This document shows positions 18,577 to 28,936 of a DNA stretch of 64,000 nucleotides, in pieces. Position numbers and translations under genes: made by a program. Source of the stretch: Mariprofundus sp. (lineage in GTDB: Bacteria; Pseudomonadota; Zetaproteobacteria; Mariprofundales; Mariprofundaceae); assembly GCA_021772835.1 (NCBI GenBank), contig JAJFLE010000037.1:1-64000 (forward strand), given 5' to 3'. The notes beneath the pieces are model-generated. The model saw only the letters and a program-made list of their open reading frames with translations, ran no database searches and was not told the origin of the DNA. Every line of letters begins with the position of its first letter. Within the stretch, counting starts at the first letter, position 1.

Positions 18577-18726
18577 CGAACATCTCCAATCCAGCAGTTA
18601 ATAACTAGTGGGCCGCACAAAAAAGTCAGGGCAGCCTCAACAAAAAGAGCGCGTAATGTAGCGCCTCCCCCCAACCCACGCCATCCTTGAGCGTGCAAAG
18701 CGCTTTTGCTGTGCTATCCTGTCGCC

Positions 18727-19536
18727 ATGATCCGCGGAGAAAACTTAAGTAAACGATATGGTGATGTTGATGCAGTGGCATCTACCGACATCCAAATCAA
18801 GGCCGGTGCTATTACTGCCATTATGGGCGGTTCAGGATCCGGTAAAACCACCCTTCTGCGTCTGCTTTCCGGCCTTGATGCGCCAACTACCGGCCATGTC
18901 TGGTATGGAGATGAAGATCTTTGTGGCCTTTCTGAAAGGCGTTTGTATGAACTGCGTGAAAACATGGGCATGCTGTTCCAGTATTCAGCCCTGCTGAACT
19001 CTTTAAATGTTTATGACAACGTGGCATTTCCGCTACATGAGCACACTGATCTGGATGAAGAAGTGATTCGCACCATGGTGTCGATGAAGCTGGAGCAGGT
19101 TGGGCTGCGCGGCTTTGAAACCATGATGCCATCAGAGCTGTCCGGCGGCATGGCCAAACGTGTGGCGTTTGCACGTGCCATAGCGATGGATCCTAAAATT
19201 GTTTTCTTCGATGAGCCGACTTCAGGACTGGACCCCATTTCTGCCGGTGTGATCAGCACACTGATTCTCAACACATCCAAGATGAACCGCATGACTTCGG
19301 TTGTTGTTACCCATGATGTCTCCGCAGGCCTTGCCATCGCCGACCAGGTCGTGCTGATGTGGCAGGGTTGCATTATTGCCGAAGGAACACCGGCTGAGAT
19401 TCAGGCCAGTACAGATGAGCGTGTCAGGCAGTTTCTGGAAGGCCGGCCCGATGGCCCGATTCCTTTCTCGCGCAGTACTACATCCTATATTGATGACCTG
19501 ACTCACAGACCGGGTACGGTAAGGATGGCATCATGA
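18727..19536 (+). CDS. mlaF: MlaF-type ABC transporter ATP-binding protein
   Basis: 269 residues from ATG 18727. All ABC motifs are intact: Walker A GGSGSGKTTL, Q-loop MLFQYSALLNSLNVYDNVAFPL, signature LSGGMAKRVAFARA, Walker B IVFFDEPTSGLDP and H-loop VVTHD. MlaF drives the Mla system, which moves phospholipids between inner membrane and periplasmic MlaC and keeps the outer membrane asymmetric. Its stop overlaps the mlaE start (ATGA). The C-terminal 30 residues (RSTTSYIDDLTHRPG) resemble the MlaF tail that contacts its neighbour subunit. It is the first gene of mlaFEDC. Confidence 0.95.
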   Translation: MIRGENLSKRYGDVDAVASTDIQIKAGAITAIMGGSGSGKTTLLRLLSGLDAPTTGHVWYGDEDLCGLSERRLYELRENMGMLFQYSALLNSLNVYDNVAFPLHEHTDLDEEVIRTMVSMKLEQVGLRGFETMMPSELSGGMAKRVAFARAIAMDPKIVFFDEPTSGLDPISAGVISTLILNTSKMNRMTSVVVTHDVSAGLAIADQVVLMWQGCIIAEGTPAEIQASTDERVRQFLEGRPDGPIPFSRSTTSYIDDLTHRPGTVRMAS

Positions 19537-20336
19537 GCAACGGCATGAGCAGCAATCAATCTTCTGCAACGATGTTTTTTGGATCCATGGGCCGCTACGC
19601 CATGCGCGGGATCGAGCAGCTCGGCGACGGCACTCGCTTAGGCCTGCACGCACTGTCACTTATTTTCGCCCGTCCATGGCAGGGTAAACATTTTGTCCTG
19701 CAACTGTACGCACTTGGTGTCGGCTCTCTGATTATCATTATTATTACCGGCGCTTTCACAGGCATGGTACTGGCCCTGCAAGGGTATTACACACTGGCAA
19801 AATTTGGTTCGGAATCACTGTTGGGAGCAGGTGTTGGCATGTCCATCATCCGTGAACTCGGTCCGGTGCTCGGCGCTTTCATGATTATTGGCCGGGCAGG
19901 TTCCAGCATTACTGCTGAAATCGGTATTATGCGTGTAACTGAGCAGACCGATGCACTGGAAATGATGGCGGTAAACCCGAAACAGCGCATTCTGCTGCCT
20001 CGAATTGTTGCCACCACAATTGCCGTACCGCTACTGGTCTCCATTTTTGATGTCGTTGGCATCGCTACCGGCTACATTGTCGGCGTTGAAATGCTGGGCG
20101 TGAACTCAGGCGCTTACATGGCCGAGTTGATCGCCAAACTGGAAATGATAGACCTCAACGGCGGCTGGGTGAAAGCTGGTGTGTTCGGATTCATGATAGG
20201 CATGATCTGCACCTACATGGGCTACCGTGCCACCCCCACCACGGAAGGTGTTGCCAAAGCGACCACGCAAGCCGTGGTCATCGCTTCAGTAGGCGTCCTG
20301 ATCATGGACTATATTCTCACCTCGTTTTACCTGTAA
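19533..20336 (+). CDS. mlaE: MlaE-type lipid ABC transporter permease
   Basis: 267 residues with five or so membrane segments. Family motifs are clear: LIIIIITGAFTGMVLALQ, RELGPVLGAFMIIGRAGSS, AEIGIMRVTEQTDALEMMAV (the coupling helix region that meets MlaF) and the C-terminal GVLIMDYILTSFYL. It is the inner-membrane channel of the Mla complex. It starts inside the mlaF stop and is followed after 11 bases by mlaD with its own AAGGAG site. Confidence 0.96.
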   Translation: MSNGMSSNQSSATMFFGSMGRYAMRGIEQLGDGTRLGLHALSLIFARPWQGKHFVLQLYALGVGSLIIIIITGAFTGMVLALQGYYTLAKFGSESLLGAGVGMSIIRELGPVLGAFMIIGRAGSSITAEIGIMRVTEQTDALEMMAVNPKQRILLPRIVATTIAVPLLVSIFDVVGIATGYIVGVEMLGVNSGAYMAELIAKLEMIDLNGGWVKAGVFGFMIGMICTYMGYRATPTTEGVAKATTQAVVIASVGVLIMDYILTSFYL

Positions 20337-20347
20337 GGAGTTTGATG

Positions 20348-20797
20348 ATGCAACCATATAGACGTATTGAAATGACTGTCGGCGTATTTGTTTTCCTCGG
20401 TCTTGTTGCCATTGCATGGCTGGCCCTGAAAGTCGGTCAGGTTGGTGGTATCGGTGAATCGGGTTACACGCTCACTGCCAACTTCAATGACGCCGGTGGT
20501 GTCCGCAAAGGCAGCGACATTATGATGGCAGGCGTCACCGTGGGCCGTGTTGACGATGTCAAACTTACCAACAACGACCACGCCACAATGATACTGCGCA
20601 TCCATGAGGGCGTGGCAATTTCTGAGGATGCATTCGCATCTGTGCGCACCAAAGGCATCATTGGCGATCGCTATGTCCGCATCACGCAGGGCATGGAAGA
20701 GGCCCATCTCGTTGCCGGCAGTGAAATCGAAGAGACCGAATCAGCCATCAATATCGAAGATCTGATCAGCAAGTATATTTTCAGCGGCAAGGAGTAA
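20348..20797 (+). CDS. mlaD: MlaD, MCE-domain lipid-binding subunit
   Basis: 149 residues. AAGGAG at 20335-20340 fits ATG 20348 (7 bases) better than ATG 20345. One N-terminal membrane helix (GVFVFLGLVAIAWLAL) is followed by a single MCE domain: ANFNDAGGVRKGSDIMMAGVTVGRV and SVRTKGIIGDRYVRI. In the Mla complex six copies form a ring with a central hydrophobic channel on the periplasmic side of MlaE. The end, EDLISKYIF, matches the usual MlaD tail. Confidence 0.95.
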   Translation: MQPYRRIEMTVGVFVFLGLVAIAWLALKVGQVGGIGESGYTLTANFNDAGGVRKGSDIMMAGVTVGRVDDVKLTNNDHATMILRIHEGVAISEDAFASVRTKGIIGDRYVRITQGMEEAHLVAGSEIEETESAINIEDLISKYIFSGKE

Positions 20798-20863
20798 TCA
20801 TTTCGCTTCGCCTTTAAAACGAACCACCCTATGATTCATTATCAAGCGTAAGGAGTTCAGACT

Positions 20864-21475
20864 ATGAGATTCATGAAACACGGCATTGCCGCACTAATCA
20901 CCCTGTTACTATCCACGTCTGCATGGGCAAATGAAAGTGATCCCAAAGCAGTGATTGAAAGCACGGTAAATCAGATCATTCATGTGCTCGACAGCAGGGC
21001 TGACAAAACCAGATTAACCTCGACTGACCGTGTAGCCATTCGCAAAACCGTTGAAGGGAAATTCGATTACATGGCCATGGCCAAACGCAGTCTGGGCAAA
21101 CCATGGAACAACTTGAAAGCAGATGAATCTGTCCATTTCACTGAAGTCTTTCGTGAGTTACTGGAACGCTCCTACGGCAATCGCCTGAGCGAATACAATG
21201 GCCAGAGCGTAGTATTTGCTGATGCTGAAATGAAAGGCAAAAAAGCGCGTGTGGAGTCGACTGTTATTGATGGCACACGTGAAACACCGGTTGAATACCG
21301 CCTGCACCAGACCGATACCGGCTGGCAGGTATATGATATTCGCATTGAGGGCACCAGCATGGTACGCACTTTCAACCAAGACTTTAAATCAACATTTGAT
21401 GACGGTGGCTACGGCCATCTGCTGAAAACGCTGGAAGACAAAGTCGCCAGTCTGAAGGAGAAGGATCAGGGCTGA
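20864..21475 (+). CDS. mlaC: MlaC, periplasmic phospholipid-binding protein
   Basis: 203 residues with a clear signal peptide (KHGIAALITLLLSTSAWA) and a good site AAGGAG before ATG 20864. The body shows the family pattern: FDYMAMAKRSLGKPWNN, HFTEVFRELLERSYGNRL and WQVYDIRIEGTSMVRTFNQDF. MlaC ferries phospholipid between the outer-membrane MlaA complex and MlaFEDB. It is the fourth gene of the operon. No mlaA and no adjacent mlaB are found; the next gene is a YhdP-like protein. Confidence 0.94.
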   Translation: MRFMKHGIAALITLLLSTSAWANESDPKAVIESTVNQIIHVLDSRADKTRLTSTDRVAIRKTVEGKFDYMAMAKRSLGKPWNNLKADESVHFTEVFRELLERSYGNRLSEYNGQSVVFADAEMKGKKARVESTVIDGTRETPVEYRLHQTDTGWQVYDIRIEGTSMVRTFNQDFKSTFDDGGYGHLLKTLEDKVASLKEKDQG

Positions 21476-21495: not shown

Positions 21496-24400
21496 GTGTC
21501 AGGTAGTCTTTTTAATCGCGCGCTGGCATCTTGCCGGCGCGTCTTCCTTTTACTGCTGCTGGCAATCACTGCAACAGGAAGCTGGATTTATTGGCAGTCG
21601 CCCAGCCTGGATTCACTGCGCCCCACGATCGAAAACTATCTCAGCCAGAAGCTTGAGCTCAAGGAAGTGCATCTGGGAGGCCTGTCATGGTACTGGGCCG
21701 GCTACTTGTGGCTACGCTCAGACAGTCTGGACTTTGTCAGCAATCAGGAAGATATAGCCTTTCACGACGGCGGCGTTGCCGTACGCATGCCACTCTCCTC
21801 GTTATTCACCGGCGCAATCAAACCCGATCGCATCAGACTCAATGGCGGCAGCCTGACCGTACGTCACAACGAGCAATCAGCTGCCCCACTCCCGGCTGAG
21901 CAGATTATTCTGGAGGATGTTACCCTTAACTGGTTCTACAAACATATGCAGGGATCACTGCCGGGACTGCATTTGACACTGGACGGAGAAAACAAACAGC
22001 TCGACGCCATCTCACCTGCATTTACCATGCATGCAAAAATTGATGCCGATGGCCTGCCCAAACAATTAACCATGTCCTGCAAGCATATCAACTGGTTACC
22101 GGAAGCACTGCGGCAACAGATCAAGGGCGAGCCCAAGGTTAAGATATCACTGCAAAGATCCGGCCAACATCAGTGGCACATTCAGATGTCTGCACAATCG
22201 AACCTGCCCATCACCCTGTTTCCCGAAACTATTTATACCTACAGCCTGAATCTTGTTGAAACAGAATTCAACATCAAAACCCGCGAAGGTGGGCCGCTGG
22301 CTCTTGAGCGTGTCGACATAAGCAAGCTCTTCTGGGCTTTGGGGAATAACACAATTTCGGCCAACGGCAACTGGCATGCAGGCAAGCTGTATGCTACGGC
22401 AACATCTGAGCACCTGGCCATGCCGCTGATCTGGTCATGGCTACGGCCACTCGGCGATGAAGCATGGCAAAACTGGCTTTCCCTGATGCAGGCTGGAGAA
22501 GCAAAACAGATCAAAGGCCAACTGTCTCTGGCATGGGAAACCCCATTAACCGCCCTGCCTTCTACCGAAGCATGGCAAGCCATGCAGTACCAGCTCGCCG
22601 CAGAAATCGAGCAAGCTGACATTGCCCTCGGTCTGTCCGAGGATTTCCTGTTGCAGACTCATGCCAGGGTGAATCTTGATCAGGATGGACTGAATGCCGA
22701 AGTCCTTGATACTGAATTGCCCCGACAGCTTGGCCGCTCCACCGGCAAACTGTTTATCCCCTGGCAAACGCTTGAGCTGCATGTCTCCGGTCAATCAAGG
22801 GTGGATGTGGCCTCTCTGCTGCAATGGTTCGGGCCAAGTCAGATCAAGCAGTGGCAATGGCATCAGGCCAAGGCAGATAGCGCATTTGAGCTGACATGGG
22901 ATCCGAGTCAAACGGAGCCTTCAGTGGTTACAGCCTCACTCACACCGCTTGGCATATGGGATGTATCCATTCTTGATGCTGCGTTAAAGCTTTCCAATGG
23001 CACGGCACACTGGGATCAGCAGCAGGGACTAAACATTTCCAACATGCAGCTTCAAACCGAACATATAGACGGCACCCTCTCTCTCGCCACTGCGGCTGAT
23101 GCCGACGGCAACTGGCGCATCACCAAGGTAGATGCCACAGGCAACAGCGATTTTGCCGCGATGGCCGCCCATTTTCAGCTACCCTTATCGCATGCATCCG
23201 GCACGATCAAAACAGAACTGCATTTTGACAAAACATGGTCTGGTCACGTTGATATGACGGCTGCCGGATGGCAGCACCTGCTTGGTTCCAGTAAAAAAAC
23301 AGATGAAGCTTATCGCATCACATATGCTGGCAATGTTGAACTGAACAAGACGTTGCCAACCATACATCTGACAGAGCTGGCCAGTGAAGGTCAGGCATTA
23401 CTGATTCGCAGCGGTGCAATTGAAATCAACCGTAACGCCTTCAAGCTCAGCCTGAAGGATCTACACACACCCTCGTTCAGCGGCTCATTGCACATGAACA
23501 TCCCCTTTGATGATGCTCCCTGGCAGCTGGCAACCAATGCCCGTTATCTGAATCGTAATGCGCTGCCTGATGCGCTCGATCATCCGGATCAGATGATCGA
23601 TAAGTCATGGCTGCTCACTGCCGATATTCAACGCTTTGACTGGAATGATGCGCAAATGGATGGTGTACATATTCAACTGGCTTCAGCCAAAGGTAGCGTG
23701 GGACAGCTTAAAGCTAAGCAAATCAGCACGGCACAACTGAACATCACCGATGTGAATGCCCGTTTCTCACTACCCGGTGATGGTAAAGTGGATCTACGCA
23801 AGCTCTCCGCCCATGTGGAAAAACAGAATCTAACCATGTCAGCCACCCTGACACCTGAACTGGAAGGCGGCATGCATTGGCGCGGGTTTGCTAAACTCGA
23901 TGGCAACTTTGGCCACCTGATGAAATTTGGCAACCTGTCCAAACGCTTCAGCGACGGTGACGGCCGCCTTCTGTTTTCCGGTCAGGGCATCATCCTGCGG
24001 GATCAACCATGGTGGCAAGGCATTGATGGCCGGCTTCGACTACGCGTCGATGATGGCAGAATCCTGGAAGGAGGAACGCTTACCACACTGCTGGCCGCGT
24101 TTAATCTTACGGAACTGTACAAACTGCTGTTAGGTCAACGCAAAGACCTCTCAGGCCCCGGCATTATGTATGAACGCCTGCAGATGGAGGCCATCATGCA
24201 GAATCAGGACATCCAGATTCGCAATGTTGCTCTGCGCTCATCGGCATTTGATCTGGTCGGCAGGGGAAGCATGGATATCAATCAGGCCGAGATTGACCTG
24301 TTTCTGATTGCACAACCACTGCAAAACCTGGATGCGCTGTTGGCTAAAATCCCACTGCTGCGTGATCTGCTTGGTGGCAAGTCTCATAGCCTGATGCGTA

Positions 24401-24570
24401 AGGTTTATCATATGCATGGTCCCTTCACCGATGCCAAGGTCGAGGAGGTCAGTGCAAAGGATGCAGGGCTCGCCTCCCCCGGCATAGTCGAGACATTGTT
24501 CAATTTACCCAGGTTATGGTTTGGTTCTGAAGACACAAAACCTGATCTGGAACCCGCACCTGCACCTTAA
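21496..24570 (+). CDS. YhdP-like AsmA-superfamily protein
   Basis: 1024 residues, GTG start 20 bases after mlaC. An N-terminal signal anchor (VFLLLLLAITATGSWIYW) is followed by a long repetitive beta-rich periplasmic region and an AsmA-type C-terminal domain near residue 850-980 (SDGDGRLLFSGQGIILR, LDALLAKIPLLRDLLGG). YhdP, TamB and YdbH are proposed bridges carrying phospholipid across the periplasm. Placement right after mlaC in one transcription unit supports a lipid-transport role, by inference. It is somewhat shorter than E. coli YhdP (about 1270 residues). Confidence 0.88.
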   Translation: MSGSLFNRALASCRRVFLLLLLAITATGSWIYWQSPSLDSLRPTIENYLSQKLELKEVHLGGLSWYWAGYLWLRSDSLDFVSNQEDIAFHDGGVAVRMPLSSLFTGAIKPDRIRLNGGSLTVRHNEQSAAPLPAEQIILEDVTLNWFYKHMQGSLPGLHLTLDGENKQLDAISPAFTMHAKIDADGLPKQLTMSCKHINWLPEALRQQIKGEPKVKISLQRSGQHQWHIQMSAQSNLPITLFPETIYTYSLNLVETEFNIKTREGGPLALERVDISKLFWALGNNTISANGNWHAGKLYATATSEHLAMPLIWSWLRPLGDEAWQNWLSLMQAGEAKQIKGQLSLAWETPLTALPSTEAWQAMQYQLAAEIEQADIALGLSEDFLLQTHARVNLDQDGLNAEVLDTELPRQLGRSTGKLFIPWQTLELHVSGQSRVDVASLLQWFGPSQIKQWQWHQAKADSAFELTWDPSQTEPSVVTASLTPLGIWDVSILDAALKLSNGTAHWDQQQGLNISNMQLQTEHIDGTLSLATAADADGNWRITKVDATGNSDFAAMAAHFQLPLSHASGTIKTELHFDKTWSGHVDMTAAGWQHLLGSSKKTDEAYRITYAGNVELNKTLPTIHLTELASEGQALLIRSGAIEINRNAFKLSLKDLHTPSFSGSLHMNIPFDDAPWQLATNARYLNRNALPDALDHPDQMIDKSWLLTADIQRFDWNDAQMDGVHIQLASAKGSVGQLKAKQISTAQLNITDVNARFSLPGDGKVDLRKLSAHVEKQNLTMSATLTPELEGGMHWRGFAKLDGNFGHLMKFGNLSKRFSDGDGRLLFSGQGIILRDQPWWQGIDGRLRLRVDDGRILEGGTLTTLLAAFNLTELYKLLLGQRKDLSGPGIMYERLQMEAIMQNQDIQIRNVALRSSAFDLVGRGSMDINQAEIDLFLIAQPLQNLDALLAKIPLLRDLLGGKSHSLMRKVYHMHGPFTDAKVEEVSAKDAGLASPGIVETLFNLPRLWFGSEDTKPDLEPAPAP

Positions 24571-24648
24571 GGTCTCGAGCCTGTAATGACTCTCTCTTGT
24601 CTTTCCTGACAATCGGCATATAAAGTCAGCATGGCAATGAAGGGACGG

Positions 24649-25455
24649 ATGATGATACACCAGCTTCACAGCCGGGCTGACCAGCTGGGCAGCCTCGCCC
24701 TGCACCTGTTTTCGGAAATTCATCGTATTTTCCAGATGACGACATCCATGATGAGCGTAGGGCTGCGTATGAGCTGGTTATCCAAACCTGCCGTCACCAA
24801 CATCGTCTTCAGACAGATCTATTTCACCGGTGTTCAGGGGCTTCCATGGGTTATACTGGTTGCGCTCGGAGTCGGTGTACTGGCCGTTTATAACATCGTT
24901 GACTTTGCCAAAAGCATTCAGGACATGTCATTGATAGGACGGTTGATCTCAAGCCTGTTGGTCAATGAAGTGGCACCACTTATTGTCACTATTCTACTGC
25001 TCTCCCGATCCGGAGTCGCCATGGTTACTGAACTCGGTACAATGCATGTGCGCGGTGAAGACCTGACGCTACGCAGCATGGGAATCAGCGTGCAGGAATA
25101 CCTGCTATGGCCTCGACTGATGGCATTCACCCTCTGCGGTCTGATTCTTACCTTTGTTTTTGTCTTTGTATCGATATGGCTTGGCGGATTACTTGTTTCT
25201 CTCAGCTATGAGATTAATTTCATCGACTTCCTCATTGAAGTCAGAAGAGGTACCAGCTTCAACGAAATTCTCATGCTTATTTTGAAAGGCTCATTATACC
25301 CTATGCTCAGTGCCATCATGCTGCTCAACAGGGGGTGTCGCGTGGGTCGTGAGCCCAACCTGATTCCGGTGCATGCCACGCAGGGTGTATTGGGAGCATT
25401 GATGCTGATACTGATGAGCGATGCCATCATCGCCATTATACAGGGACTCTCATGA
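24649..25455 (+). CDS. Second MlaE-type permease (MCE locus 2)
   Basis: 268 residues from ATG 24649; ATG 24652 is equally possible (GAAGGGAC lies just upstream) and 24631 less so. The MlaE fold is evident: VEF-type start region FRQIYFTGVQGLPWVILVAL, VNEVAPLIVTILLLSRSGVA and VTELGTMHVRGEDLTLRSMG, the coupling-helix region, then four or five membrane segments. It differs clearly from the first MlaE. Its end overlaps the next gene by 4 bases. It starts a run of six overlapping genes (24649-28936) that together look like an MCE lipid-transport and control module. Confidence 0.9.
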   Translation: MMIHQLHSRADQLGSLALHLFSEIHRIFQMTTSMMSVGLRMSWLSKPAVTNIVFRQIYFTGVQGLPWVILVALGVGVLAVYNIVDFAKSIQDMSLIGRLISSLLVNEVAPLIVTILLLSRSGVAMVTELGTMHVRGEDLTLRSMGISVQEYLLWPRLMAFTLCGLILTFVFVFVSIWLGGLLVSLSYEINFIDFLIEVRRGTSFNEILMLILKGSLYPMLSAIMLLNRGCRVGREPNLIPVHATQGVLGALMLILMSDAIIAIIQGLS

Positions 25456-26126
25456 ACAGTATCTTGTTCTGGCATGAGTTGCACCTTGGACACACGCTCA
25501 TCCCGTCATCACAAGTGAAACATGGTGAGTTTGTCCGTCTGGTGATGAACTATCCGTGCCAGTATGCATTTATGCAGCATATGTTCTCTCCCTGTGACGA
25601 ATCGAGTGCCAACTCATGGTGCATGTGGCTGCAAACAGGTGCAGACAGGCACATGTCAGGCAGCCGCGAGTTCAGTATGTCTGTTGGCAGCATGATTCGT
25701 CATCGTGGCCTCATCGCCAACTTAAGTCTGCGCGAAAATCTGCTGCTTCCATTCCTCTATCACGAAGACCAACAGCGCCTTGAACAGGCCACAGATGAGC
25801 TCACGAATGTGGCCGGAATTCTCGGCATTACAACAGCACTGGATGAAAAAGCCGGCGAACGCACAACCTTCACCCATGCTTTGATTAGCCTGGGGCGCTG
25901 CCTGCTGATAAAACCTGCGATTATTGTTGCCCAGGAAGTACATATCGGCATGCCTCCGGAGCATCTTGAACAGTTTAAAGATATTAGCATGCACGCACTA
26001 CAGCGATTAGGGTCAGGTCTGCTCTATTTAACCGCCAGCCCGGATGAGGGCTCTGGCCTGAATTATGCTCGTACGCTGACTGTCGCAAGCAATAAGCAGA
26101 GCATGCAGAGCGGAAAAGGAGAATAG
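25452..26126 (+). CDS. Degenerate ABC ATPase-like protein (MlaF-derived, motifs lost)
   Basis: 224 residues in an intact frame. It lines up with MlaF by position: the Q-loop zone reads SVGSMIRHRGLIANLSLRE (Gln to Arg), the signature zone TTFTHALISLGRCLLIKPA (no LSGG), Walker B IIVAQE (Asp to Gln, Glu kept) and the H-loop zone LLYLTASPDE (no His). No Walker A lysine motif is visible in the N-terminal part (VRLVMNYPCQYAFMQHM sits there). ATP hydrolysis is therefore unlikely. It overlaps the permease by 4 bases and the MlaD-like gene starts one base after its stop, so it is kept in the operon. Assignment to the ABC fold is inferred from pattern and context. Confidence 0.72.
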   Translation: MNSILFWHELHLGHTLIPSSQVKHGEFVRLVMNYPCQYAFMQHMFSPCDESSANSWCMWLQTGADRHMSGSREFSMSVGSMIRHRGLIANLSLRENLLLPFLYHEDQQRLEQATDELTNVAGILGITTALDEKAGERTTFTHALISLGRCLLIKPAIIVAQEVHIGMPPEHLEQFKDISMHALQRLGSGLLYLTASPDEGSGLNYARTLTVASNKQSMQSGKGE

Positions 26127-27128
26127 GTGGGCGAATTCGTTGCTAATGTCAGGCGTCAGGTGGGCTGGTTTGTTTTGCTCGGCATGGGCACTATTGTACT
26201 GATTATCCTCGCTGTCAGCCTGCAAAGCGATCTCTTTGCCAAGAAGTTTACTCTCTATTTTTCTCCGCCTTCTGCAGCATTCTTTTACGACGGTCAGGCC
26301 GTCAAATTTCAGGGTTTCACCGTTGGCCGCATCAACGAGATGGACTTACAAGAGGATGGCAGGGTACGCATCACACTCAAGCTGCTTGAGCGATATCACC
26401 CAATGCTGCATCAGGATGCCATCATTCATCTGGTCAGGGATGGTCTTATTGGCGAGCAGACATTGGAAATCACTTCCGGCAATGCCAAAAAACCTGTCGT
26501 TGAAGCCGAACAGACTATCCATTACGAAACTGCGGCCACCATTGAACAACTACTACAGGACATAAAACCTGCTGTCGAAAATGCCAATACCTTGCTGCGG
26601 GAGCTGACTGAACTCGCCGCATGGTTGAATGATCCGACCAGTGATTTCCGTCAGATGCTGTCGCGCATGAATGCAGTCAGTCAGGATCTGAACCGTGAAA
26701 ATGTAGGCAAACTGGTTATCAATTTAGCCGAAATACTGGAAAACCTGCAGAGCATGACCAAGGGCCTGAAAGATAGTCGGGTCGGTGAACAACTGGCCAG
26801 GTCTCTGCAGTCCACTTCGGAGATACTGTCCGATCTCAGACCTCTGACTCAACAGCTTGCTAAAGAGGGGCCGGAAAGCCTGACACGCATCAACAGTCTG
26901 ATTAACCATGTCGACCTGTTATCCAAGTCTCTGGACACCGTTGCCTCTGACCTTTCCGAACTCACACCTGAACTGCCGGGACTGGCAAGAGAATCGCGAC
27001 AAGCTATTAGCGAAATACAAGGCATGCTGAAGTCACTTCAAGGTTCGTGGCTGCTCGGCAACCCGCCAGGACCTGCCCAAGGCAAAGGAAACAGTGTCGC
27101 TCCACCCGTATTGGATATGCAGCCATGA
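26127..27128 (+). CDS. MlaD-like MCE-domain protein with long coiled-coil tail
   Basis: 333 residues, GTG start at 26127 directly after the previous stop (GGAGAATAG supplies the site). It has one N-terminal membrane helix (VGWFVLLGMGTIVLIILAV), an MCE domain at about 38-120 (FYDGQAVKFQGFTVGRI, LVRDGLIGEQTLEIT) and then about 200 helical residues with heptad-like Leu/Ser spacing (NLAEILENLQSMTKGL), longer than MlaD of the first locus. Such tails can form a tube or needle in other MCE proteins. It overlaps the lipoprotein gene by 4 bases. Confidence 0.9.
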   Translation: MGEFVANVRRQVGWFVLLGMGTIVLIILAVSLQSDLFAKKFTLYFSPPSAAFFYDGQAVKFQGFTVGRINEMDLQEDGRVRITLKLLERYHPMLHQDAIIHLVRDGLIGEQTLEITSGNAKKPVVEAEQTIHYETAATIEQLLQDIKPAVENANTLLRELTELAAWLNDPTSDFRQMLSRMNAVSQDLNRENVGKLVINLAEILENLQSMTKGLKDSRVGEQLARSLQSTSEILSDLRPLTQQLAKEGPESLTRINSLINHVDLLSKSLDTVASDLSELTPELPGLARESRQAISEIQGMLKSLQGSWLLGNPPGPAQGKGNSVAPPVLDMQP

Positions 27129-28111
27129 AACATCTCATCAGATGTTCATGCTACGGCAGATGGTTGCTGACTCTGTTGTGTGTTTCCATGCTCTGTTCTT
27201 GCGGAGGCAAAAGCAGCCATAAAGCTCCTGAACCTGAAAATCCTTATATCTCGCAAGCTAACAATTTTATTCAGAACGGATTGGCCGCAATGCAGAATGA
27301 ACGCTGGCAATCCGCAGAAAACTCATTTGCGCGGGCTTTAATCTCATCCCAACTTGCTGATGATATCAGTCTTGTTTCCCTATCCTGGTACAATCTGGCA
27401 GTGATACGATCCGCACTGAATAATGTTCAAGGTGCAGAAGAGGCATATGTTCGTGTGCTTGAGCTGACTGATCGTCACCAGGACAGCCTCATGCAATTGC
27501 GAGCACAAATCGCGCTTGCTCTGATACAAGAGCGTGAAGGCCACCTGCCGGAAACATTTGATCTGCAGCAGCTACCGGCCAGTCTGTATCAGGCAGGAGG
27601 GCACTGGCCTACGGATATTCGCCTGCAGGCAGCGCGCCTTGCACAACGCCTGCACTATACCACCTTGGCACAACAGGCTTATCTGGTCATAACGCAGAAA
27701 ACAGGCAGTGATCAAAACCTGCTGAAAATGAAGGCTGAAGCTCATATGGGCCTTGCCCTGCTGTCCAGCTCGGAAAGCAGATATGAGCATGCGTGGTCAG
27801 AAGCTGAGAAGGCTCTGAGTTATTGCCGCGTCGTCGGCGCTCCACGCCTGACAGCCCACGCTCTGCTTCTGCAAGGGCAACTGAGCATCGCAAGCAAGAG
27901 TGAACGCAAGGACAGGCTGGAGCGTGCACTGAGCATTTATGCCGCGCTCGAAGACAGCTTTGCTCAAAAGCAGGCCCTGACCGAACTTATCAAGTTGAAT
28001 GCTCCCGAGCCTTCCCCTGCACTGCGGTTGCGTTTACAGCAACTCGAGGACAAGCTTGGCAAAGAAAACGAAAAGGCTGAAACCTTTTCGATCATGGAAG
28101 AGGATCATTGA
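27125..28111 (+). CDS. TPR-containing lipoprotein of MCE locus 2
   Basis: 328 residues. The start is the ATG at 27125 in ATGA overlap with the MlaD-like gene. A signal peptide ends in a lipobox, SMLCSCGG, with a lipid-modified Cys near residue 25. The mature part is helical with TPR-like repeats (QNERWQSAENSFARAL, SWYNLAVIRSALNNVQGAEEAYVRVLEL, HAWSEAEKALSYC). Many MCE systems have an auxiliary lipoprotein (PqiC-like), but this one is a TPR protein instead. It is probably on the periplasmic face of the outer or inner membrane. The role is inferred from position. Confidence 0.85.
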   Translation: MKHLIRCSCYGRWLLTLLCVSMLCSCGGKSSHKAPEPENPYISQANNFIQNGLAAMQNERWQSAENSFARALISSQLADDISLVSLSWYNLAVIRSALNNVQGAEEAYVRVLELTDRHQDSLMQLRAQIALALIQEREGHLPETFDLQQLPASLYQAGGHWPTDIRLQAARLAQRLHYTTLAQQAYLVITQKTGSDQNLLKMKAEAHMGLALLSSSESRYEHAWSEAEKALSYCRVVGAPRLTAHALLLQGQLSIASKSERKDRLERALSIYAALEDSFAQKQALTELIKLNAPEPSPALRLRLQQLEDKLGKENEKAETFSIMEEDH

Positions 28112-28620
28112 TGGGCAACCCTTGCATACAAGACGTGAGCTTTCCCGCCAGCGAAAGCAGCCATGTCGGCAAATTATGTCTGCAACTGAACTGCAACAGC
28201 GACTGCATTCACGTATTGCGCTCCATGGTTGCAGTGATGACCGCGCGCGCCGGTATGGATGAGCTGCGCAGCAACAGAGTTGCCATCGCAGTCGATGAAC
28301 TGTTTGCCAATATCGCCGCCCACGCTTATGGCGGCAAAGCTGGCCGCGTGGAGATAGAAACCTGTATCTGCGACGAGGCCGAACACGGTCGGGCACTGGT
28401 CTTTGATTTTCGTGACTTTGCCTCCGTGGCCTGGGCTGGTTGTCTCAAAGAGGCCGCCAACCATGTTCCTGACCCTGAAAACCTCTGCCCCGGTGGCCTT
28501 GGCTTGAGGCTGATCTGCAAGGTGTCCGATCATTGCGAACACCAAGCCCTCGAAGACGGCAATCACTGGCGCCTTATATTTAACATCAACGATGGAGAAA
28601 ACGATGGATGTAACGCTTAA
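28111..28620 (+). CDS. RsbW-like ATPase-fold (HATPase_c) protein, putative anti-sigma/serine kinase type
   Basis: 169 residues; ATG 28111 shares the base A with the previous TGA. It has a GHKL-type N-box VAIAVDELFANIAAHAYGG and a G2-type box PGGLGLRLICKVSDHCEH, the pattern of RsbW/SpoIIAB switch kinases. The G1 box, normally with two glycines after Asp, reads DFRDFASVAWAG, so nucleotide binding may be altered. In partner switching such a kinase phosphorylates a STAS protein; a STAS gene follows directly, overlapping by 17 bases. No sigma factor is nearby, so its target is unknown. Confidence 0.82.
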   Translation: MGNPCIQDVSFPASESSHVGKLCLQLNCNSDCIHVLRSMVAVMTARAGMDELRSNRVAIAVDELFANIAAHAYGGKAGRVEIETCICDEAEHGRALVFDFRDFASVAWAGCLKEAANHVPDPENLCPGGLGLRLICKVSDHCEHQALEDGNHWRLIFNINDGENDGCNA

Positions 28621-28936
28621 TTTTGAACGTGAAGACCGGGATGATACGCATACATTGTTGCGCATCAAAGGTGACGTCACCATTCATACTTCAACACGAT
28701 TGAGAGAACAGCTTAAACCTCTGTTTACGACAAAAATGCAGGAGGTCCACGTGGCACTCGATCATGTCGATTTCATGGACTCATCAGGTATTGCGACACT
28801 GGTAGAGGGCTTGCAATGGTCACGCCTCACCGGTGGCCGCTTTGTGCTATCAGGGCTCAAGGACAACGTTAAAGATGTATTCTCTCTCGCCAAACTGGAT
28901 ACTGTATTTGATATTGAGGACAGCACTGCGGCATGA
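28604..28936 (+). CDS. STAS-domain protein (anti-sigma factor antagonist or MlaB type)
   Basis: 110 residues from ATG 28604, set by GGAGAAAACG just before it; an ATG at 28592 is in frame but lacks a site. The STAS fold shows [20 protein letters not shown] and the phospho-acceptor segment [17 protein letters not shown], with Ser present, then [26 protein letters not shown]. It could be a SpoIIAA/RsbV-type antagonist regulated by the kinase upstream, or the MlaB-like subunit that binds an MlaF ATPase; the locus otherwise lacks MlaB. It overlaps ubiD by 4 bases. Confidence 0.88.

Follow-up and report, generated by a model that had tools for sequence, protein, structure and literature searches.

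A degenerate ABC nucleotide-binding subunit retained beside an MlaE-family permease in an MCE cassette of Zetaproteobacteria

ATP-driven nucleotide-binding domains (NBDs) are a defining part of ABC transporters. What, then, is the role of an NBD gene that has lost its ATP motifs and still stands, with an open frame, beside the gene for an MlaE-family permease? We consider such a case in a 64,000-nt stretch of Mariprofundus sp. DNA (contig JAJFLE010000037.1), referred to as “the window”, in which all features described here are on the forward strand. The gene, pABC (25452..26126), has an ATG start and is predicted from its sequence and from profiles to encode a degenerate ABC nucleotide-binding subunit of 224 amino acids. 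At this locus, the nearest named relative is Mariprofundus micogutta (M. micogutta; L033), whose protein is 83% identical. Here, we describe what pABC descends from, what it has lost, the company it keeps, and what it may do.

pABC is the second of four tightly packed genes. The first, MlaE2 (24631..25455), encodes an MlaE-family permease of 274 amino acids (Pfam MlaE, 2e-39), and its stop codon shares four bases with the pABC start (ATGA, 25452-25455). The third, MCE2, starts at position 26127, with no gap after pABC; this arrangement, a 4-base overlap at the start and an MCE gene directly after, had been described in an initial annotation and is borne out by the coordinates. MCE2 (26127..27128) encodes 333 amino acids, with a transmembrane helix, one MCE domain, and a helical C-terminal region of ~200 residues; it matches the MlaD domain (1.5e-8) and Mtu_fam_mce (9e-22), along with families of coiled-coil type. 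The fourth gene (27125..28111) also starts in a 4-base overlap and encodes a TPR lipoprotein of 328 amino acids, recognised by its TPR matches and a lipobox-like LCSC-GG near the N-terminus. Outside these four genes, the window has a canonical MlaF, MlaE, MlaD, MlaC locus (18706..21475), then, directly upstream of MlaE2 in the gene order, a gene for a large protein (21496..24570) that we take to be YhdP/AsmA-like. On the other side, family matches identify an RsbW-like kinase and a STAS protein (28108..28936), an RsbW-RsbV/STAS pair that adjoins UbiD.

The boundaries of the unit are evident from relatives without it. In two cassette-free genomes (G010 and G022), the order IlvE-MlaFEDC-YhdP-RsbW-STAS-UbiD is that of the window minus exactly MlaE2-pABC-MCE2-TPR. 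In such empty sites (L207, L208, L209), YhdP is followed directly by RsbW where the window has 24571-28108. A further genome, G018, has an empty site between YhdP and RsbW, yet carries the cassette elsewhere. Because the empty site is clean, the unit is the four-gene cassette: judged by gene order, MlaE2-pABC-MCE2-TPR is a discrete unit, and RsbW, STAS, and UbiD have long stood beside the Mla/YhdP cluster. We considered the RsbW/STAS partner switch as a cassette-specific regulator, by analogy with MlaB, and rejected it, since 64 of 78 Zetaproteobacteria carry a STAS gene, among them most of the genomes without pABC, and RsbW-STAS directly follows YhdP where the cassette is missing. The STAS protein could instead be an MlaB-like regulator of MlaF, given that an mlaB gene is absent from the MlaFEDC locus. 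We also rejected, as a candidate for a missing motor, an additional ABC ATPase encoded 2 kb upstream in G004 and G018, because it lies in what, read by eye, is apparently a molybdate-uptake (ModABC)/molybdopterin cluster.

The descent of pABC from ABC ATPases is best seen at the level of profiles. The single sequence has no Pfam match, and its weak matches elsewhere are to ABC ATPases only, the best at 2e-4 in NCBIfam and, in the PDB, 1g9x at 1.5e-5. With a profile of 18 pABC members, all 38 PDB matches with E up to 0.01 are ABC transporter proteins, the best at 1e-9. Alignment with hhalign to a profile of MlaF-type ATPases gives a probability of 96.9, over residues 74-212 only. Single-sequence matches to LolD and MalK begin at residues 20-23; hence the N-terminal part of pABC is probably an altered P-loop half, although with less support. 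Indeed, the N-terminal third is weakly conserved except at a few positions. An AlphaFold model built from only three sequences reached a pLDDT of 35. Given the significant profile similarity and the colinear register, pABC is, by sequence comparison, an ABC-ATPase homologue by descent, as the initial annotation had proposed from the positions of the motif remnants.

We identified 34 pABC orthologues, 33 in one family (f1) and one in a second (f2). Walker A (GxxxxGK[ST]) is absent from all 34. Its former site, residues 32-40 (MNYPCQYAF; 25545..25571), was placed by a spacing of ~45 residues to the Q-loop, as in MlaF, and by the longer PDB alignments; within it, Gln37 is invariant in the 33 f1 orthologues. 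The Q-loop Gln is Arg83 in the window and R, H, N, or G across f1. Similarly, neither LSGGQ nor LSGG occurs in any of the 34. The former signature, residues 134-142 (AGERTTFTH; 25851..25877), is replaced in most members by R[ST]x[YF][TM]H, with Arg137 in place of the signature Leu (33/33) and His142 nearly fixed (32/33). At the former Walker B, residues 158-162 (IVAQE; 25923..25937), the Asp is gone from all 34 sequences and has become Gln161 in every f1 member; the next residue, Glu162 in the window, is mostly acidic (E in 21, D in 11, Q in 1). The alignment of orthologues places the former H-loop at residues 194-196 (TAS; 26031..26039), where A, S, T, G, D, or C stands for the His in f1. pABC therefore lacks the features of a functional NBD: Walker A, LSGGQ, the complete pair of Walker B Asp and catalytic Glu, the Q-loop Gln, and the H-loop His. 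The losses that had been read from the window sequence are thus correct, and they extend across the whole of f1. The most conserved stretch is the region of the Q-loop and the coupling-helix groove, residues 78-104 (25683..25763), with a mean column entropy of 0.78 bits versus 1.68 for residues 1-212; A89, N90, N96, L99, P100, and Y103 are each present in 33/33 f1 members. Two divergent members were seen, in G037 (L082:2209-2832) and G118 (L192). The G037 protein retains a Walker-B-like end (AEEP) and is missing the AGERS..TH motif of the family, so the pattern of degeneration varies at the base of the pABC family.

In E. coli, the coupling helix of MlaE touches MlaF (PMC7790496). The corresponding helix of MlaE2 (TELGTMHVRGEDLTLRSMGIS; 25027..25089) was located in an alignment of 18 MlaE2 sequences with 28 other MlaE sequences, the latter drawn from several loci and families and including MlaE of the canonical locus. 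A D-A pair in the core of the helix is present in 28/28 of the others and 0/18 MlaE2. The Glu that precedes the pair is kept in 26/28 of the others and is changed from E to G in 17/18 MlaE2, with the core reading RGE(D) in most of the 18. By contrast, the cluster of buried Glu, Lys, and Asp described for E. coli MlaE (Glu98/Lys205/Asp250) is kept in 18/18, 18/18, and 17/18 MlaE2, respectively. In the permease tree, MlaE2 forms a clade (100/99) apart from the 28 other MlaE. As aligned, MlaE2 has preserved its translocation core, whereas its NBD interface and the NBD itself have changed in step. In a separate case, G363 encodes an MlaE-like orphan permease (L214:3558-4340), flanked by an adenylate/guanylate cyclase gene on one side and thrS on the other. 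Its coupling helix is also without the usual D-A pair (SELALMKTRNEMTSLARMG), and there is no ATPase or MCE gene next to it.

The altered interface bears directly on whether MlaE2 is powered from elsewhere. The initial annotation suggested that this MCE locus may borrow the intact MlaF near 18.7 kb. That MlaF is indeed intact (18706-19536), and borrowing is possible; it is disfavoured by a coupling helix that has lost the D-A pair found in 28/28 permeases elsewhere and the Glu found in 26/28. In its fullest form, the proposal is that MlaF energises MlaE2 in trans, with pABC as an adaptor, a stabiliser, or an off-switch that competes for the coupling helix. One ATPase is common to Mce1 and Mce4, a precedent for such sharing (PMC9947336). 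An MlaF orthologue was found in 20/20 genomes tested, among them all 19 cassette genomes then known; however, MlaF has other reasons to be there, and finding it is therefore uninformative on borrowing. Moreover, MlaF already has a dedicated permease, and the cassette often lies at a distance from it. The joint change of coupling helix and NBD is the main argument against simple borrowing. In an ABC dimer, each composite ATP site pairs the Walker A and B motifs of one subunit with the LSGGQ of its partner. Composite sites thus need the motifs of both subunits, and a pABC-MlaF heterodimer would be without any complete ATP site, i.e., there would be no rescue. Overall, we regard powering by MlaF as unlikely, while still deserving serious attention. 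Alternatively, an unrelated energiser may drive MlaE2.

A different possibility is that pABC acts mainly on MlaF and the Mla locus rather than on MlaE2, as a regulatory pseudo-NBD that forms, e.g., mixed dimers. Its NBD-like sequence and the adjacency of the cassette to MlaFEDC in the window and in close relatives fit this proposal. The distribution of the genes does not. pABC orthologues occur in 34 of 78 Zetaproteobacteria genomes, and MlaE2 accompanies pABC in 34/34, two of which (G196 and G275) were judged from contig edges, where the contig ends cut the cassette on the permease side; elsewhere in the 78 genomes, neither gene was found without the other. Many Zetaproteobacteria have canonical MlaE and no pABC, which links pABC to MlaE2, not MlaF. 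In addition, the cassette lies apart from Mla in most genera, and pABC is missing the C-terminal extension of MlaF. A primary role on MlaF is therefore improbable. We give slightly less credence still to the proposal that pABC is a sensor that gates the conduit by binding a nucleotide or another ligand through Q37, R137, H142, and Q161. Polar replacements are fixed at these formerly catalytic positions, but no known nucleotide-binding motif is left, and the fixed residues may be structural.

Is pABC maintained at all? Five pairs gave Nei-Gojobori dN/dS estimates of 0.06, 0.13, 0.19, 0.16, and 0.14 (one further pair was saturated), in a similar range to those of MCE2 (0.05–0.16). None of the 34 orthologues has a premature stop; two stops flagged by the search are gene ends. 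Neutral evolution and frameshifts in relatives had been named as grounds for doubt, and neither was encountered. From these comparisons, pABC is under purifying selection and not decaying. That it is an ordinary pseudogene, open by chance, would account for the loss of every motif, but is hardly credible and is refuted by the 34 intact copies, the dN/dS values, and the invariant residues. Conversely, the earlier description of pABC as a maintained structural or regulatory subunit gains support from the purifying selection, the stop-free orthologues, and the strict co-occurrence with MlaE2.

One genome shows what an earlier stage might have looked like. G041 belongs to a class other than Zetaproteobacteria, one that no other genome in the collection represents. 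In it, the four genes recur in unchanged order (L083:9007-12644), each matching the profile of its cassette family. Its ATPase matches Pfam ABC_tran at 5e-18. Walker A (GPNGNGKT), Walker B (VLFIDE), and an H-loop His (SSHN) are still in place there, but neither the Q-loop Gln (GFILSHT) nor the signature (MSELQ) remains. The coupling helix of the G041 permease reads HGEVEG, i.e., it is partly changed, alongside a partly degenerate NBD. In the tree, this permease groups with the MlaE2 clade, on long branches that call for caution. A search for further intermediates outside Zetaproteobacteria, covering 399 genomes of the phylum, yielded only G041. Its half-degenerate ATPase makes stepwise loss of the NBD motifs, through a state like that of G041, plausible.

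We favour a model in which pABC, descended from an MlaF-type NBD, would have lost ATP binding and hydrolysis and been retained as a structural partner that MlaE2 cannot do without. One pABC would bind each MlaE2 coupling helix, so that the MlaE2 dimer is held or gated by pABC instead of by an ATP-driven NBD dimer. MlaE2, the long helical tube of MCE2, and the outer-membrane-type TPR lipoprotein would together form a complex that reaches the outer membrane, an envelope-spanning conduit in the manner of PqiABC. Lipids, the default cargo for MCE systems, would move through the conduit passively, without local ATP hydrolysis. We hold with even confidence that pABC is a non-hydrolysing pseudo-NBD that clamps MlaE2 in an ATP-independent, Pqi-like lipid conduit. 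A little more tentatively, we propose an evolutionary course in which one lineage of lipid-transporting MCE ABC systems abandoned ATP, passing through a signature-less intermediate of the G041 type to a selected non-nucleotide clamp, and so turned from a pump into a trans-envelope conduit.

Several known systems resemble parts of the cassette. MlaF in MlaFEDB of E. coli is the NBD of an MlaE-type transporter, and it shares with pABC profile homology and, in the permease, the core charges (PMC7790496, PMC7367683). Unlike MlaF, pABC is without all catalytic motifs and without the C-terminal handshake extension; unlike the E. coli Mla system, the cassette has no MlaC, its MCE protein ends in a long helical tail, and its coupling helix is altered. 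Measured against the definition of a true Mla system (PMC7790496), the permease is MlaE-type, as the Pfam match indicates; the MCE protein of that definition has no long C-terminal helix, whereas ~200 residues follow the MCE domain of MCE2. The mycobacterial Mce1 and Mce4 loci also lack an active ATPase of their own; there, the two transporters share the active ATPase MceG (PMC9947336), whereas the cassette keeps a dead NBD and a changed permease interface. PqiABC of E. coli combines an inner-membrane protein, an envelope-spanning MCE protein, and an outer-membrane lipoprotein, and none of these three components is an ATPase (PMC10897342). PqiA is not an MlaE permease and there is no NBD remnant, whereas the cassette permease is of the MlaE family and its lipoprotein is a TPR protein. 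Finally, heterodimeric ABC transporters with one degenerate site also retain a subunit despite NBD motif loss (PMC7756269). However, each such pair keeps one complete ATP site; pABC has none, and the cassette encodes no active partner NBD. We did not find a description of an ATP-motif-free MlaE-partner subunit like pABC in the open-access papers searched.

Here, the sole cognate NBD of a permease is free of ATP motifs, yet it is under selection throughout a bacterial class and is matched by the coupling helix. Nature has thereby set up an experiment on what NBDs do besides hydrolysis. The pABC cassette also bears on an open question of envelope biology, namely whether MCE conduits can move lipids in the absence of ATP, and by what means. 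Its features suggest that, in many iron-oxidising Zetaproteobacteria, an ABC transporter has come to operate without an ATP motor.
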